A DNA stretch of 64,000 nt from Paraurantiacibacter namhicola (GCF_001687545.1 NZ_CP016545.1:372001-436000), one strand, 5' to 3'. Shown: positions 1-53,267, numbered from the stretch's first letter. Notes: generated from the sequence alone by a model not told the origin. Numbers and translations are program-made.

Positions 1-889
1 CGAACGCTATGCCGAGGGCTTTGGCCCGGGCACGCGCTTCATCGGCTGGTCGCTGTCCAAGACGGTGACGGGGCTGATGATCGGCGCGCTGGTGGCCGAA
101 GGGCAGCTGGCGCTGGACGAATCGCCGCCCATCCCGCGTTGGCAGCGGAGCGGCGATCCGCGCGGCGAGATCACGATTCGCCAGCTGCTGCAGATGCGCA
201 GCGGGCTGCGGCATGCCGAGGCGAGCGACCCGGTCTACGAATCCCCGGAAGTGCGGATGATGTTCCTCGACGGGCGCGACGACATGGCAGCCTGGGCGCA
301 GGCGCAGCCGCTGGAGCATGAGCCGGGCGCCGAGTTCGACTATTCCACCAACACCTCCGTCATCCTGGCGGACGTGGCGGCGCGCGTGCTGGCACCGGGC
401 GCCGGGCCTGATGCGCGGCGCGAGGCGGTGGCGGGCTTCCTCGAATCGCGGCTGGCAACGCCCATGGGCGCGCCCAGCTTCACCGGCGAATTCGATGCCC
501 AGGGCACCATGCTGGCCGGGTCCAACATCTGGGCCACGGCGCGCGACTGGGCGAAACTGGGCGAGCTGCTGCGCAATGGCGGCAGCAAGGGCGGCGTGCA
601 GCTGGTACCGCGCAGTTGGGTGGACTTCATGCGCCGTCCCAGCCCGCGGGCAAGCGATTACGGCGCGCATCTCTGGCTCAATCGCGCATCGGGTAATGAC
701 CGCACGGTGCTGTGGCCCGCGCAGGGTCCGGACACCGCCTTTGCCGCCGTTGGCCACCTCGGCCAGTATGTCGTGGTTTCGCCCGAGCAGGGCCTGACCG
801 TGGTTCGGCTGGGCAAGAGCACGAATGAGGAGCGAGACCTGATGGTCCCGCTGCTGGCCGAGCTCTTTGCGCTTTACCCGCTGACGTAG
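1..889 (+). CDS. Serine hydrolase, beta-lactamase/6-aminohexanoate-dimer hydrolase family (5' end outside window)
   Basis: The reading frame is open from base 2, so the N-terminus lies left of the window. Within the first 20 codons is a W-S-L-S-K motif (codons 50-61), which fits the catalytic SxxK of class C beta-lactamase-like serine hydrolases. About 100 residues later FDYSTN supplies the second motif (Y-x-x-N), and GHLGQYVVVSPE near the C-terminus resembles the third HxG-type motif. These proteins usually act as esterases or amidases on small substrates; the substrate cannot be told here. A GTG at 65 would cut the SxxK serine off, so it is not the start. The stop overlaps the end of the convergent PhzF gene by 16 bp. 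Whether a signal peptide exists cannot be judged. Confidence 0.85.
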   Translation, partial: ERYAEGFGPGTRFIGWSLSKTVTGLMIGALVAEGQLALDESPPIPRWQRSGDPRGEITIRQLLQMRSGLRHAEASDPVYESPEVRMMFLDGRDDMAAWAQAQPLEHEPGAEFDYSTNTSVILADVAARVLAPGAGPDARREAVAGFLESRLATPMGAPSFTGEFDAQGTMLAGSNIWATARDWAKLGELLRNGGSKGGVQLVPRSWVDFMRRPSPRASDYGAHLWLNRASGNDRTVLWPAQGPDTAFAAVGHLGQYVVVSPEQGLTVVRLGKSTNEERDLMVPLLAELFALYPLT

Positions 890-46787: not shown

Positions 46788-46924
46788 GCGCGCCTGATCG
46801 CGCCTGACCGCCCCGAAACGGGACGCGCCCGGCGAAAGACTCCTGATTGCGGGAAACTGCATGGTAACCGCGGGGTTAACTCGCGCACCTCGCGTGCTGC
46901 CTGCCATCGACAAGGGGAATGATC

Positions 46925-47707
46925 ATGCACCGCTCCGCACTCGCCGCCACCGGCCTCACGCTCGCGCTGATAGCCAGCCCGGCCGCCGCGCAGGATTACT
47001 ATTACGAAGACGATGCCGCCTATGCGGAAGAGGTCTATTACGAGGACGAAGTCGAATACGCGCAGCCCGCCACCATGTGCCGGACGGCCGAGCGCGCGCC
47101 GGCACCGTGCGGCGCCTATCGCAACGTTCAGCACCACGCTGCGCAGCAGCCTGTCCAGCGCGGCTATTCCGAATACGAGCGGAGTGCATGGCTGGATGAG
47201 TGCACCCGCCGCGTGAAGGCCAATGGCAGCGGCACGCTGATCGGCGGTCTGGCAGGCGCAGCAGTCGGCGGTGTGATTGGCAACCGCGTGGCCGGCCGGG
47301 GCGATCGCCTTGGCGGTACGCTGATCGGTGCCGGCGTGGGCGGTCTTGCCGGGGCGGCGATCGGCAATGCCGTCGATGGCCGCGATGCGCGCAATGAATG
47401 CGAAGCCTATCTCGCCGATTACGAGGCGAACTGGCGCGCGCCGGCCGGTCATCACGGCAGCTATGGCCATCACGGCCAGGTCGTCGGATATACCTATGCC
47501 GTGCCGATGATGGTCGTTCGCGTGCCGGTAGAGCGCCCCCGCCGCGCCCAGCGCAATGTGGTGGTGGAAGAGCATGTGACTTACGAGACGGTCTATGAGA
47601 CCGAAGTGGTCGAAGTGCCGGTCCAGCGCCCCGCGTCCAAGCGCACACCCGTGCGCACCGTGCCCGTCAAGCGCACACCCGCCAAGCGCACGCGCTACGT
47701 CAAGTAA
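46925..47707 (+). CDS. Glycine-zipper 2TM domain exported protein
   Basis: 260 residues. Of two in-frame ATGs, 46925 is used since AAGGGG is 7 nt upstream, while 46919 would leave 1 nt. A signal peptide (ALAATGLTLALIASPAAAQ) is followed by a Tyr/Asp/Glu-rich acidic segment, two glycine-zipper hairpins in tandem (GSGTLIGGLAGAAVGGVIG and GGTLIGAGVGGLAGAAIG), and a basic tail with repeats KRTPVRTVPVKRTPAKRTR. Glycine zippers of the Rick_17kDa/SlyB type insert in the outer membrane. A His-rich loop (HHGSYGHHGQ) is also present. Function unknown; possible envelope-stress or barrier role. Confidence 0.85.
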   Translation: MHRSALAATGLTLALIASPAAAQDYYYEDDAAYAEEVYYEDEVEYAQPATMCRTAERAPAPCGAYRNVQHHAAQQPVQRGYSEYERSAWLDECTRRVKANGSGTLIGGLAGAAVGGVIGNRVAGRGDRLGGTLIGAGVGGLAGAAIGNAVDGRDARNECEAYLADYEANWRAPAGHHGSYGHHGQVVGYTYAVPMMVVRVPVERPRRAQRNVVVEEHVTYETVYETEVVEVPVQRPASKRTPVRTVPVKRTPAKRTRYVK

Positions 47708-47740: not shown

Positions 47741-50440
47741 TCAGGGCGAATTGTCGGCGACTTCTATCGGGGAAAGCCTGATCGTGCCGGCATTCTGCAC
47801 CGGCTGTGCATCGCCCACCGCAAGGCCGGTCGCGAGCTCGCGGCGCACGGACAGGACCCGCGCGCTGTCGGCAGAAATGCGCAGCGCGTAATCGCCATAG
47901 GGCACGCGGTCGAACAGGAAGAATCCGTCATATTCGGAGATGGTCGTGGCCGCGACTTCGCCGTCGCTGCGCACCAGTTCTAGCTTCACGCCCGGACGCG
48001 GGCGCTCTTCGGCATCCAGCAGCATGCCTTCCACTTCGCCCGTCGGTGTGACGGCAAGCTCGACCGTCGCTGCCACGCCCGGGCGCGGGGTTACGACCAC
48101 GCCCTTGCCGCGCGGCACCAAGAAGGGATCCTCCAAGGTGGAGGAATCGATACCGACCAGGACCTGGCGATACGGATCGAGCCCCGCCACGAAAGCGTGG
48201 CCGTCCTCATCCGTCGGCGCGGAGGAGCCGAACTGCCCGGCCGTCACGCCCACATTCGGCAGCGCCTCCTCGCCCGGTTCGCGGCGGCCATTGCCGTTGC
48301 GATCGACGAAGACGGACACTGCCGCCTGCCCGCGCTGGGCCAGCTTCTCGTTCGACATGTGCCACCCGCCGCTCAGTGGGTCCGGGCCCACGCTGAAGCT
48401 GATGAACAGGTTAAGGCCATAGGAGCCGCGCGTATCGAGTGTGCCGCCAGCCTGCAGCGCGAATTTGTCGAACTGGTGGATGTATCCCGCGCCGAACTGC
48501 GTGACATTGGTCCGCGCGAAGTGCTGCACATCGACGCGCAGGTCCGACCGCACGCCGATGGCCCGGTCCGCACTGATACGCGCGCTTTCGAAGCCCTGGT
48601 CCGGCCCGCTGATGCGGAATTGCGCCTCGCCGCGCATGCGGAACCCCAGGAAGCGGGTGTTGGCCAGCACGCCCACACGCGTCTGGTCCGCCTCGCTCGA
48701 TCCCGGCGGCACGCCCGACACGTCGCGGTGCAGCACGAAACCGGTTAGCGAGACCTGCGGAAGGATCAGCGATCCGCGCAGCAAGAATTCGTTAACCTTT
48801 TGCCCATCGCGCCTGACCGAGCGGGAGAAGCCGAAGGCCACCGGCATGTCCTGCTTGCCCAGCTTCAGCGAATGGTCGATTTCGAAGCGCTGCGCGCTCT
48901 TTTCATCGGGCCGGATCGTGCCGCTGGTGTAGCCGCCGTTGGTAAAGAAGGTCTCGGCCCGGAAATTCGTCCTCCCGAAACGCCCAATGGCCTCCGCGCG
49001 GAAGGCCTGGCCTGCGCCGAACTCCTGCGCACCGGTGACATTCACCAACACCGGCCCAAGCGACCGCTGCACAGAGCCTTCGACGTAATATCGTTGTTTT
49101 CCAAATAGATACATGGATTGCGCACTGACGCCCGCAGAGGTCCGCTGGTCGATGCCATATTGCGCGCCTGCCCCGAAGATCCAGCCGCCTTCCGGCCGCA
49201 CGCTTGAGCTGGAGAAGCTGATGAGGTCACGGTTGCGCTCCACGGCGCCGGCCCAATACTCCAGCTTACCGGGCTCCAGCGCGGAATAACCCACCGGGAT
49301 GGATCGCGTATCCTTCCGGATCTGCCCCTGCGGACCGTAAAGCACGATCTCCAGCTCGTTTCGGCCCAGCAGGAGGTCGACTTCGAATTCGTAACGTCCG
49401 TCGATGGGGGACGGCTGGAAGGCCAGCAGCTGGCCGTTGCGGTAAAGTTCGGCGTCCCAGCCCACCGGCAGCGCGCCGCGCACCACGGTCTTGCCGAAGG
49501 TGTTCGGGCGATTGAGCGGCTGGTTGCTGACGAACAGGCCGCGCCCGACGGCGGGACCGCCTGCCAGCTGGCCGCCCGGATAGTCCACATCGCCGACACC
49601 CACCTGCGTTGCATCGAGCGGGCCCAGCATGCCGCCTTCCGGCTGCACGCGGTAAGCGCGCATCCGCAGGCTGGCGGGCGTTCCCTGGTCGTCGGAGGCA
49701 AGACGCGCCTCGAAACTGGCGGATGCGAGCTCTCCGGTGGCGAAGATCTCGTACTGCCCGGTAGTGCGGGTGCTCGATCCGTCGGACTTGTGGCCGACCC
49801 GTGCAACGACATCGACGCTCGGCAGGCGGAAGGTCTGGTAGTCGTTGCGCGCTTGCGGAAGCTTGGACAGATCGGTCGGGGCGCGCCCGGAAAGTCGCGC
49901 CGCGCGACTTTCGCGCTCGATCCGCTGGATGAAAGGCAGGGGCGCGTCGCTTTCCACCTTCAGCACGGATTCGAAGAGATTGGGCGTCAGCGAGACACCA
50001 AGCCAGTCGGAAAGGCTCTTCGTATCGACACACCAGCCCTCGGGCGTGTCATACAGCTCGCCAGTCCGTAAATCACGCCTCTTGTTCACGATTTGTACCG
50101 TGTTGGAGTCGCGATCGAGGGTGAATGTGCGCTGCTCGCTGAAAAGCCACCCGGTTGCGCGGCGCGACTTCTTGTCGAGTCGCACCGGCAGGTCGAATGA
50201 CTGAATGACGTCGGCCAGGTCCACGCAAGTGCCGCCCGGCGTCTGGTAGCCGCGTAGCTCGAAGGTCAGGCGGTATTTCTTCACCTGCGGCTCCAGCAAG
50301 ATGAAATCGTCCTCATTTGCCTGCCAGGTGGATGGCGTCGCGGCGTCCTGCGCCGATGCGGGGCTTAGCGGTGCAGACGCAACAAGGGCCGCCGCCGTAA
50401 TGGCAGCGGCCCTGGTCGCAAAGGCCCGCAGGATCCGCAT
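47741..50440 (-). CDS. Usher-like outer-membrane protein with two-Cys N-domain and C-terminal regulatory-like domains
   Basis: 899 residues. The signal peptide is cleaved near ASA-QD (residue 30). An N-terminal domain (about 45-165) has one cysteine pair, C72 in GGTCVDLADV and C137 in GWCVDTKSL, that I cannot name. Residues about 200-700 alternate short amphipathic strands, as in a large beta barrel; near 335-385, VGWDAELYRNGQLLAF and RNELEIVLYGPQGQ resemble the strand-plug region of fimbrial ushers. The C-terminus has an SdrD-B-like calcium motif (VFVDRNGNGRREPGEEALPN) and a carboxypeptidase-regulatory-like domain (GEVEGMLLDAEERPRPGV). It follows the chaperone by 30 bp. Proposed role: secretion of the DUF4402 subunit; inferred from context. 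Confidence 0.75.
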   Translation of the reverse strand: MRILRAFATRAAAITAAALVASAPLSPASAQDAATPSTWQANEDDFILLEPQVKKYRLTFELRGYQTPGGTCVDLADVIQSFDLPVRLDKKSRRATGWLFSEQRTFTLDRDSNTVQIVNKRRDLRTGELYDTPEGWCVDTKSLSDWLGVSLTPNLFESVLKVESDAPLPFIQRIERESRAARLSGRAPTDLSKLPQARNDYQTFRLPSVDVVARVGHKSDGSSTRTTGQYEIFATGELASASFEARLASDDQGTPASLRMRAYRVQPEGGMLGPLDATQVGVGDVDYPGGQLAGGPAVGRGLFVSNQPLNRPNTFGKTVVRGALPVGWDAELYRNGQLLAFQPSPIDGRYEFEVDLLLGRNELEIVLYGPQGQIRKDTRSIPVGYSALEPGKLEYWAGAVERNRDLISFSSSSVRPEGGWIFGAGAQYGIDQRTSAGVSAQSMYLFGKQRYYVEGSVQRSLGPVLVNVTGAQEFGAGQAFRAEAIGRFGRTNFRAETFFTNGGYTSGTIRPDEKSAQRFEIDHSLKLGKQDMPVAFGFSRSVRRDGQKVNEFLLRGSLILPQVSLTGFVLHRDVSGVPPGSSEADQTRVGVLANTRFLGFRMRGEAQFRISGPDQGFESARISADRAIGVRSDLRVDVQHFARTNVTQFGAGYIHQFDKFALQAGGTLDTRGSYGLNLFISFSVGPDPLSGGWHMSNEKLAQRGQAAVSVFVDRNGNGRREPGEEALPNVGVTAGQFGSSAPTDEDGHAFVAGLDPYRQVLVGIDSSTLEDPFLVPRGKGVVVTPRPGVAATVELAVTPTGEVEGMLLDAEERPRPGVKLELVRSDGEVAATTISEYDGFFLFDRVPYGDYALRISADSARVLSVRRELATGLAVGDAQPVQNAGTIRLSPIEVADNSP

Positions 50441-50470
50441 GAGCGCTATCCGTATGTCCCGTCCGCTGCC

Positions 50471-51310
50471 TTACAGCACCGCGTCGAGAGCCATGATGAG
50501 CCCGCCGCCGCGCTCGGGCGGTTCGCGGAATTCGATCCGCACCGGGCCACGCAGGGTGTCCACCATCTCGGCGGGGATTCCGAAGACGGCCTGGCGCTTG
50601 GTAATTTCGGGATAGACGCCCAGTCCGCGGGCGGCGAACACAGGGTCGTCCACGCCCGGCTTGCTGACCACCAGGTCGCCATATAGCGAGGCACTTCCCT
50701 CACGCGCGATATCGATCGCGAAGGCAGGATTCCCGTCGATGGTCGTAAGCCGCGCATTGTCGAGCGAGCCGGTCACTTCCAGCTGCCCCTTGCGGATGAT
50801 GATCGGCATGGTGATGCCGTAGATCGGGATCAGGTTGATGCTGATGCCCCCGCCAGCCGGCGCAGCCTCGGTGACTTCCTGCGCCTTCGGGATGGCATTG
50901 AAGGACATGTGCACGCGGTATTCGCCGTCGGGCAGGTCCGCGCTGGGCCGCGCGCTGACGCGGATGGCCTGCGGCTGGTTGGGCGGCAGGACGACGCGGC
51001 GCGGGGCATAGCGGACCATGTCGCGGCTGGAGATCTCAAGCGCATTCTCTGCGCCCTCCTCCACTTCCACCAGCGATCCGTCCGGCATCATCCGGCGCAG
51101 TTCCAGCGTCACACGGTACGTCGCGTCTTCCGATCCGATATTGGACAGGATGATCTCGCCGCCGTTGCGGCCATCGAGCACGAGGCGCGTGGGCGCGATC
51201 AGCAAGTCGCCCTGCGCGGCAGCGGACGGTGCAAGGGCGAAGGAGCTTATGAGCGTTGCAGCGGCCAGCGCGGCCTTCCTGAAGGGTACCGGGAATACGG
51301 TGCGAAACAT
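50471..51310 (-). CDS. PapD-like periplasmic pilus/surface-protein chaperone
   Basis: 279 residues. Signal peptide (AALAAATLISSFALAPSAAAQ), then two Ig-like domains. LLIAPTRLVLDGRNGGEIIL is the family N-terminus, DMVRYAPRRVVLPPNQPQAIRV is the G1/F1-type strand with the conserved proline region, and YRVHMSFNAIP followed by ISINLIPIYGITMPIIIRKG continues into domain 2. It is longer than classic PapD (about 220 mature residues). It should hold secreted subunits by donor-strand complementation and hand them to the usher. Lies between the subunit and usher genes on the same strand, 209 bp after the subunit gene, with a hairpin terminator in the gap. Confidence 0.82.
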   Translation of the reverse strand: MFRTVFPVPFRKAALAAATLISSFALAPSAAAQGDLLIAPTRLVLDGRNGGEIILSNIGSEDATYRVTLELRRMMPDGSLVEVEEGAENALEISSRDMVRYAPRRVVLPPNQPQAIRVSARPSADLPDGEYRVHMSFNAIPKAQEVTEAAPAGGGISINLIPIYGITMPIIIRKGQLEVTGSLDNARLTTIDGNPAFAIDIAREGSASLYGDLVVSKPGVDDPVFAARGLGVYPEITKRQAVFGIPAEMVDTLRGPVRIEFREPPERGGGLIMALDAVL

Positions 51311-51446
51311 GTGCGATCCTCTTCTTCGAAAACTCGCCCGCAGCCATTTCGTGCAGCGGGGGTGCCTGTCCGGGCTACGCCAACAGGGTTAATTCCGCGT
51401 AAAGCATGGAAGGGCGCGGCTTACGGGATGGCGCGGAGGCGCAAGC

Positions 51447-51480
51447 AAAGGGCCGCCCCCGGTTTCCCGGAGGCGGCCCC
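51447..51480 (-). terminator. Terminator or attenuator between subunit and chaperone genes
   Basis: On the minus strand GGGCCGCC (51472-51479 complement) pairs with GGCGGCCC (51450-51457 complement) around an inner CCGG/CCGG stem, followed by TTT. It lies 40 bp after the DUF4402 stop and well before the chaperone. Partial read-through would make much more subunit than chaperone and usher. The rest of the gap 51311-51519 shows nothing else recognisable. Confidence 0.75.
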
Positions 51481-51519
51481 TCATGCTTTTCTGGCGTGCG
51501 CCGCTACGGGCGCATCGGC

Positions 51520-52062
51520 TCAGTTGTAAGCGACGTTCACCGTAACGGTGCCGCTGTAAGTGCCTTCGGCCTGGTTCGGGCCAACAGTCAGCGTGCCGCC
51601 GACCGTGAAGTCCTGCGTGCCGCCGGCGGGCAGCGTTGCAGCGTTGCCGGTCAGGCTGGTGGTGAAGTCCTTCACCGTCATCGTGCCGTCGGTGCCGGCC
51701 GGCGGAGCGGCGTGGCTGAGCGTTTCGGTTGCGTTCTGGAACGTCACCTGCACGCTGCGGCCGGCGAGGCCAGCGATCGTGAAGGTCGGCGTTGCCAGCG
51801 TGCCGCCACAGATCAGCGTGGCGGGGCAGGTGCTGCCACGGGTGCCGTCTGCATTGACAATCACGTCCACGTCAGCGGTCAGGCCGCCGTCGGCAACCGT
51901 GCCGAAGTTCAGGACGTTGTCGGTGGCGTCGACCGTCACGGACAGTGCGGACAGCACTTCAGCGCGCACGTCGGCGGAAGCCTGCGTGGCGGCCTGGGCC
52001 TGGCCAGCAACGGCCAGGGAGACGAGTGCAGCACCGGTTGCGGCAATCTTCGTGAATTTCAT
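51520..52062 (-). CDS. DUF4402 surface/pilin-like subunit
   Basis: 180 residues. Signal peptide (MKFTKIAATGAALVSLAVAG then QAQA, cleaved near residue 24) followed by a beta-rich domain with low charge and many Thr, Ala, Gly and Val. The C-terminal GGTLTVGPNQAEGTYSGTVT then VNVAYN is the recurrent DUF4402 ending, and FNFGTV-like NVLNFGTVADGG near the start is also typical. A single pair of cysteines (GSTCPATLICGG) probably forms a disulfide. DUF4402 proteins are thought to be pilin-like or secreted matrix subunits assembled by chaperone/usher machinery. It is the first gene of the operon and has a 194-bp upstream region with an A/T-rich stretch. Confidence 0.85.
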   Translation of the reverse strand: MKFTKIAATGAALVSLAVAGQAQAATQASADVRAEVLSALSVTVDATDNVLNFGTVADGGLTADVDVIVNADGTRGSTCPATLICGGTLATPTFTIAGLAGRSVQVTFQNATETLSHAAPPAGTDGTMTVKDFTTSLTGNAATLPAGGTQDFTVGGTLTVGPNQAEGTYSGTVTVNVAYN

Positions 52063-52256: not shown

Positions 52257-53267
52257 TCAGATGCTTGCGCCTGTCAGACGCTGGCAGATCAGGTCCAGCT
52301 GGTCCAGGGTACGATACTTTATCGTTACCGCTCCACTGCGCGGATCGGCGTCCGTAGCGATCTTTACCGACAGGCCGAGAATCTCTTCCAGGTGATTCTC
52401 TACCGCTGCGATGTCCGCATCCTCTGCGCCCCCGCGTGGCTGGCGAGCGGTCTTGCGCCCCTCCCCGCCGGAAGCACCCTCGCGGCCCTTGCGCGCCAGC
52501 TTCTCGACATCGCGCACGGAAAGCTTCCTGCGCACGGCTTCATCGGCCAGCGCGGTCGCATCGTCATGGCCGATCAGGGCGCGTGCATGGCCCATGTCCA
52601 GCCGCCCGGCCTCGACATGATCGAGCACGGCGTCCGGCAGGGCGAGCAGGCGCTGGAGATTCGCCACGTGGCTGCGCGACTTGTCGACCAGCTTGGCAAT
52701 CTCCGCCTGGGTCATACCTTCCTGCTCGGACAGGCGATGATAGGCGCGCGCCTCCTCGACCGGGTTCAGGTCTTCGCGCTGGACGTTCTCGATCAGGGCG
52801 AGCGCCATGACCTCCTGTTCGTCCAGCTCGCGCACGATGGCGGGTATCTCGTGCAGCCGCGCCTTCTGCGCCGCGCGCCAGCGACGCTCACCCGCGACGA
52901 GCTGGTAGCGGCCGCCGGCGAGCGGGCGGACGATCACGGGCTGGATGACGCCGCGCGATTCGATGGATGCAGCCAGTTCTGCCAGCGCACCGTCGTCAAA
53001 ATGGCGGCGCGGCTGCTCCGGATGCGGCTCGATCGCGGCAATGGCCAGCATATTGGCAGAAGAAGGCGCGGCGTTTTGCGAAGATTGTCCTGAACTTCCA
53101 GCGCCTTGGGCCGAATTCGTGCCCTGCGCCGGAGCCCTGCCGGAGGACCGCACCAGCGGTTCCTCCCGGCGGGCCTCGCCCATCAATGCGCCCAGTCCCT
53201 TGCCCAGCTTTCGCTTCGGCGGAGTTGCTGCCTTCGCTGGCGTGCCGGTGGTCGTCTTCGCGCTCAT
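52257..53267 (-). CDS. parB: Chromosome partitioning protein ParB
   Basis: 336 residues. A basic, Ser/Gly-rich N-terminus (RKLGKGLGALMGEA is the ParA-stimulating box) precedes the CTP-binding domain, with GGRYQLVAGERRWRAAQKA, the helix-turn-helix (ALIENVQREDLNPVEEARAY; MTQAEIAKLVDKSRSHVANL) and a C-terminal dimerisation domain (HLEEILGLSVKI). It binds parS palindromes and spreads as a CTP-dependent clamp. The ATG overlaps the parA stop (ATGA). Three strong parS copies lie 0.8-3.3 kb upstream. ParB is followed by the DUF4402 operon rather than the usual downstream housekeeping genes. Confidence 0.97.
   Translation of the reverse strand: MSAKTTTGTPAKAATPPKRKLGKGLGALMGEARREEPLVRSSGRAPAQGTNSAQGAGSSGQSSQNAAPSSANMLAIAAIEPHPEQPRRHFDDGALAELAASIESRGVIQPVIVRPLAGGRYQLVAGERRWRAAQKARLHEIPAIVRELDEQEVMALALIENVQREDLNPVEEARAYHRLSEQEGMTQAEIAKLVDKSRSHVANLQRLLALPDAVLDHVEAGRLDMGHARALIGHDDATALADEAVRRKLSVRDVEKLARKGREGASGGEGRKTARQPRGGAEDADIAAVENHLEEILGLSVKIATDADPRSGAVTIKYRTLDQLDLICQRLTGASI

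Follow-up and report, generated by a model that had tools for sequence, protein, structure and literature searches.

A probable divergent chaperone–usher fibre system with DUF4402 subunits in Paraurantiacibacter namhicola and other sphingomonads

Gene content and conservation of the locus

We analysed a 64,000-nucleotide stretch of the chromosome of Paraurantiacibacter namhicola (GCF_001687545.1 NZ_CP016545.1:372001-436000; hereafter, the window). Three of its genes, encoding an usher, a chaperone and a DUF4402 protein (Pfam, E 1.3e-22), were confirmed as the open reading frames first called, all on the minus strand and all with signal-peptide-like starts (Table 1). A scan of public genomes recovered 295 loci, the best 80 of which were retained. 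Among these 80, every sphingomonad locus in which all three genes were readable (76 of 76) had the order subunit–chaperone–usher, confirming that the arrangement is conserved in relatives, and the median spacing between the chaperone and usher genes in the readable loci was 39 bp. The gene set is far from a chance association. Of 398 sphingomonad genomes sampled, 143, from 33 of 78 genera, contain the usher, and more distant versions of the system extend to further alphaproteobacteria and to additional classes. DUF4402 or PF14352 is mentioned in no open-access full text, and we found no published description of the system.

Table 1 Features of the locus and unlinked DUF4402 genes of the same genome
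Feature	Position	Strand	Size or basis
Usher, outer-membrane assembly platform	47741..50440	-	899 aa
Usher CTD2, residues 789-888	47777..48076	-	Pfam CarboxypepD_reg at 803-859; structural and profile alignments
Usher CTD1, residues 704-788 (the earlier SdrD-B-like domain)	48077..48331	-	Aligned with FimD C-terminal region up to residue 833; motif common to archaic ushers
Usher beta-barrel, residues 204-687, about 24 strands	48380..49831	-	DSSP of model; FimD/PapC barrel alignment
Usher plug domain, residues about 315-368	49337..49498	-	Insert after sixth barrel strand; inside FimD/PapC alignment
Usher N-terminal domain, residues 46-163, invariant C72 and C137	49952..50305	-	High-confidence domain in model
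Periplasmic chaperone, PapD/CsuC kind	50471..51310	-	279 aa
GC-rich hairpin in the subunit–chaperone intercistronic gap	51442..51488	-	Folded; strong hairpin in 76/76 homologous loci
Major fibre subunit (predicted), DUF4402, N-terminal donor-strand-like extension	51520..52062	-	180 aa
parB, conserved upstream neighbour, outside the machine	52257..53267	-	Same-strand parB directly upstream in 70/70 loci showing parB
Unlinked DUF4402 gene, first family	C1:884972-885520		Candidate tip subunit
Unlinked DUF4402 gene, second family	C1:686624-687235		Candidate minor subunit

Two further features of the locus recur with the genes. The hairpin noted between the subunit and chaperone genes proved to be strong and general: the best 45-nt fold past the subunit stop codon had a median of -29 kcal/mol, compared with -16 for shuffled sequence, and exceeded the shuffled strength in every one of the 76 loci. 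The operon also lies beside parB as described, the two being a median of 203.5 bp apart in the loci showing that gene. Four loci with sufficient flanking sequence lack parB, and all four carry an extra subunit inside the operon; at L020, which likewise has an extra subunit in the operon, parB is about 30 kb away. Usher distances track ParB distances (r 0.77; permutations reached 0.14 at most), the pattern that vertical inheritance should give. In the usher tree, loci linked to parB are found on both sides. The position of parB is no accident. Adjoining the usher gene is a convergent gene (window positions 46919-47707, plus strand) for a glycine-zipper (Rick_17kDa_Anti-like) product, a homologue of which is present in just 6 of the 80 loci.

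The usher is distant in sequence and FimD/PapC-like in predicted fold

Pfam searches of the usher matched solely CarboxypepD_reg and SdrD_B, near the C-terminus. PF00577, the Pfam usher model, matched neither this protein nor any other in the genome, and the window usher had no Pfam match to CooC_C/TcfC. An NCBIfam search of the window proteins gave nothing useful beyond Pfam, and PDB searches, run both with single sequences and with profiles, returned no usher, PapD or pilin, with SdrD/NOMO-like matches to the usher C-terminal domains as the only hits.

An AlphaFold model of the usher alone, built with 64 homologues (mean pLDDT 88.5), contains a beta-barrel and the plug-like insert suspected from the sequence. 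FimD and PapC structures occupied ranks 1–17 in a Foldseek search with this model (best E 1.8e-27), with unrelated proteins appearing from E 1e-8 on. Using VIA, residues 196–889 aligned with FimD over 553 residues (Z 20.6, rmsd 8.4 Å), compared with Z 14.8 for the best unrelated barrel. The modelled fold of the window usher is therefore that of FimD/PapC over the barrel, plug, CTD1 and CTD2, although identity is about 10–13% and a direct profile comparison gave no significant match to FimD. The description of this usher as noncanonical holds for its sequence, which lacks a PF00577 match and belongs to a clade of its own, but not for its predicted fold.

Profile comparisons connect the family to archaic ushers. 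In single comparisons, as opposed to database searches, a close-family profile matched archaic ushers with E 2e-11, and a wide-family profile did so with E 1.1e-21 over columns 48–857 (reversed control, 0.09); BamA, LptD and FhuA, used as control profiles, did not match the usher family. The initial annotation correctly placed SdrD-B-like and carboxypeptidase-like matches at the C-terminus and proposed that these domains might act as an adhesin or cap. That role is not supported, because the two domains align by structure with FimD and by profile with archaic ushers, pairing with the archaic counterparts through a clear common motif, and are thus normal CTD1 and CTD2; the Pfam labels reflect remote fold resemblance.

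The N-terminal domain bears the two cysteines first pointed out, C72 and C137, which are invariant in 64 of 64 homologues. The wide-profile alignment with archaic ushers starts at column 48. The VIA alignments scarcely cover this domain; compared alone with the archaic, FimD and EcpC N-terminal domains, it gave no significant match. Ushers of some more distant relatives (L160, L161, L164, L165 and L166) are 1032–1285 aa long, exceeding the window usher.

The chaperone and the major subunit

The chaperone profile matched archaic chaperones with E 9.2e-10 in a single comparison (reversed control, 0.31), and PapD_N was matched by 10 of 53 chaperone homologues. Residues P103, R132 and Y233 are invariant in all 53 and align with P59, R89 and Y196 of CsuC, where the proline is reported to kink strand D1 and R89 and Y196, together with R174, anchor the subunit carboxylate (PMC4654587). 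No arginine aligns with CsuC R174, and the invariant R203 lies nearby. On these results, the product is predicted to be a PapD-like periplasmic chaperone with an invariant D1 proline, and it is the only chaperone of this kind in the whole genome. R42, within a TR motif, is invariant as well; it presumably resembles Arg8 of classical chaperones, with threonine where we take the classical lysine to sit, and we regard this likeness as a lead only. The chaperone would then mix a non-classical anchor arginine (R132) with an Arg8-like one.

The model of the DUF4402 subunit (pLDDT 87.2) retrieved only chaperone–usher pilins or adhesin pilin domains among its top 50 Foldseek matches, with Caf1 best (E 1.6e-3) and CsuA/B, FimG and CfaB also included. 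VIA gave Z values of 6 to 8 (at most 8.0), and the top score was tied with two non-pilin Ig-like domains, so that the hits are structurally of very uniform kind but modest strength. The pilin alignment begins at approximately residue 34; the N-terminal extension lies outside it and is free, as would suit a donor strand. In a single profile comparison, the subunit matched SCPU pilins in its C-terminal 38 columns alone (E 7.5e-9), and the reversed-sequence control was negative. On this modest match, the major subunit is modelled as a pilin-type incomplete Ig fold with an N-terminal extension.

Placement among chaperone–usher clades

The archaic (sigma) pathway of the Csu pili (CsuA/B, CsuC, CsuD and CsuE) has detectable profile homology to the window system in all three components, and the anatomy of the machine is alike. 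The system could thus be a plain, if divergent, member of the sigma clade and not a separate branch, a placement that is compatible with the mechanism proposed below. The homology of usher and chaperone profiles to their archaic counterparts is highly significant, and the C-terminal part of the subunit matches SCPU pilins. Against this, the pilins here are DUF4402 proteins, and no SCPU (PF05229) gene was found in the genome. In an IQ-TREE analysis, a branch with 100/99 support separated FimD and the archaic ushers from all 18 family ushers, although long branches (EcpC, FimD and L168) make the tree tentative. The window system has neither an SCPU pilin nor a PF00577 usher and, with the same long-branch caveat, its usher does not group with archaic ushers. 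The family ushers tentatively form a separate, deep and well-supported clade, and we consider simple sigma-clade membership unlikely. We would call the system a divergent variant of the known chaperone–usher pathway. Two further differences from Csu are that no two-domain tip adhesin was found in the DUF4402 list of this genome and that the subunit genes are split over three chromosomal places.

Similarity to the other pathways is more limited. Direct profile comparisons with FimD, EcpC, FimC, EcpB, FimA and EcpA were at chance level. The alternative (alpha) pathway (EcpABCD and CFA/I) has in common with the window system a non-classical chaperone arginine in strand F1, but the usher, chaperone and subunit have no profile match to EcpC, EcpB and EcpA. 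Beta- and gammaproteobacteria are reported to be the only hosts of classical and alternative systems, whereas archaic systems are widespread (PMC9452303), a distribution that fits a non-classical alphaproteobacterial branch. One usher of the wider set (L168:4794-7412, in G278) was matched by both the DUF4402-family and the archaic usher profiles and has a long tree branch; it is possibly an intermediate between the two.

Probable additional subunits are encoded away from the operon

The genome contains three DUF4402 genes: the operon copy and two unlinked genes hundreds of kilobases away on the same chromosome (Table 1). Among 60 relatives, both unlinked families are confined to usher-positive genomes. 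Across the 398 sphingomonad genomes, strong matches (E up to 2.5e-20) to the first family are present in 92 of the 93 that have the close usher type and absent from the 305 others; the genomes counted come from one family and are phylogenetically non-independent. Of these 92 genomes, 25 have the gene immediately ahead of the one for the major subunit, on the usher strand and no more than 2.5 kb upstream of the usher; the remaining 67 have it at an unlinked site. The first unlinked gene of P. namhicola is next to a metallopeptidase-like gene and ribD/ribE, a neighbourhood kept in three relatives, and the second is next to an ABC-transporter ATPase gene and nadB, kept in five (names by sequence reading).

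The two families differ at the N-terminus. In alignments, the second retains the donor-strand-like stretch, whereas the first lacks the alternating sequence found ahead of strand A in the major subunit and has in its place a Cys-rich or Gly/Asn-rich linker, reduced in L108 to about five residues. By the logic of strand donation, a subunit that accepts a strand but does not donate one must sit at the tip, and the product of the first gene is therefore probably the subunit that starts the fibre, judging from its N-terminus; the product of the second is probably a minor subunit. In L213:2478-3814 (G016), two second-family paralogues stand in tandem beside the ABC-transporter gene, and the number of minor subunits therefore varies. 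In two relatives (L021:10703-11734 and L022:6819-7838), a protein of 339–343 aa with a C-terminal DUF4402 domain is encoded directly after the usher and resembles, by analogy of place and form, a two-domain tip adhesin.

Because two unlinked DUF4402 genes accompany the machine, one of them from a family that follows the close usher type so closely, the system is not a one-subunit system at the genome level: a second fibre subunit is unlinked, and probably a third too. The initial annotation, which described a minimal one-subunit system with no further subunit or tip gene, was accurate for the operon but not for the genome. An alternative is a polyadhesin or capsule-like fibre of the F1 antigen type (Caf1M–Caf1A–Caf1), built strictly from one subunit, in which case the other DUF4402 genes would serve unrelated functions. 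The parB-linked operon does hold a single subunit gene, as does that of F1 antigen, and the fibre protein Caf1 is the best Foldseek match of the subunit. However, this explanation has to contend with the co-occurrence just described and the in-operon position in 25 genomes, and the genome has neither a second such chaperone nor a PF00577 usher that could serve the extra subunits. We therefore regard it as improbable. A further difference from F1 antigen is that the chaperone and usher of the window go unrecognized by classical Pfam models.

Proposed mechanism and implications

We propose, with a probability of roughly 80%, that the products of this locus are the major subunit and the assembly machine of a chaperone–usher fibre, belonging to a divergent, undescribed branch and supplied with extra subunits from unlinked genes. 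Sec would bring the DUF4402 protein into the periplasm, where the chaperone would bind it by donor-strand complementation, using R132 and Y233 in its cleft to anchor the C-terminal carboxylate of the subunit. The chaperone would hand the subunit to the usher, and subunits would then polymerize through the plugged barrel, presumably by donor strand exchange, into a thin fibre. The donor-strand-less first-family protein would probably start the fibre as its tip, and the donor-strand-bearing second-family protein would be a probable minor subunit. The hairpin 3′ of the subunit gene probably keeps subunit output well above that of the machine. Gene order and the predicted barrel, plug and pilin folds support the earlier suggestion of a secretion and assembly route for a thin fibre, and a role at the surface and in biofilms may be inferred. 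Export of the DUF4402 protein as a single or matrix protein through an usher-like barrel, with no donor-strand-exchange polymerization, would suit the dispersal of the subunit genes, which is unusual for pilus operons, but is very unlikely given that the anchor residues, pilin fold with a free extension, plug and two CTDs make up the architecture of a polymerizing usher system and that the operons of relatives contain several subunits, as well as tip-like proteins of two domains.

A broader reading of the fibre system, to which we give even odds, is that DUF4402 is the marker of a separate, deeply branching clade alongside the archaic, alternative and classical clades, a clade that in sphingomonads has been inherited vertically at a fixed site next to parB while the tip and minor subunits were split off to fixed places of their own, yet are still needed for the fibre. 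DUF4402, a domain of unknown function, would gain a likely function as a chaperone–usher pilin family. The standard Pfam usher model misses this machine, which is present in more than one-third of the sampled sphingomonad genomes and has a bearing on attachment and biofilm formation in abundant aquatic and soil alphaproteobacteria. The locus is also a clear case of co-occurring fibre subunits scattered on the chromosome, for which neighbourhood-based annotation would report one subunit. In G585, G562, G559, G767 and G737, a single in-frame stop codon interrupts an otherwise complete family usher, which suggests either that some lineages have recently lost the system or that the assemblies contain errors.
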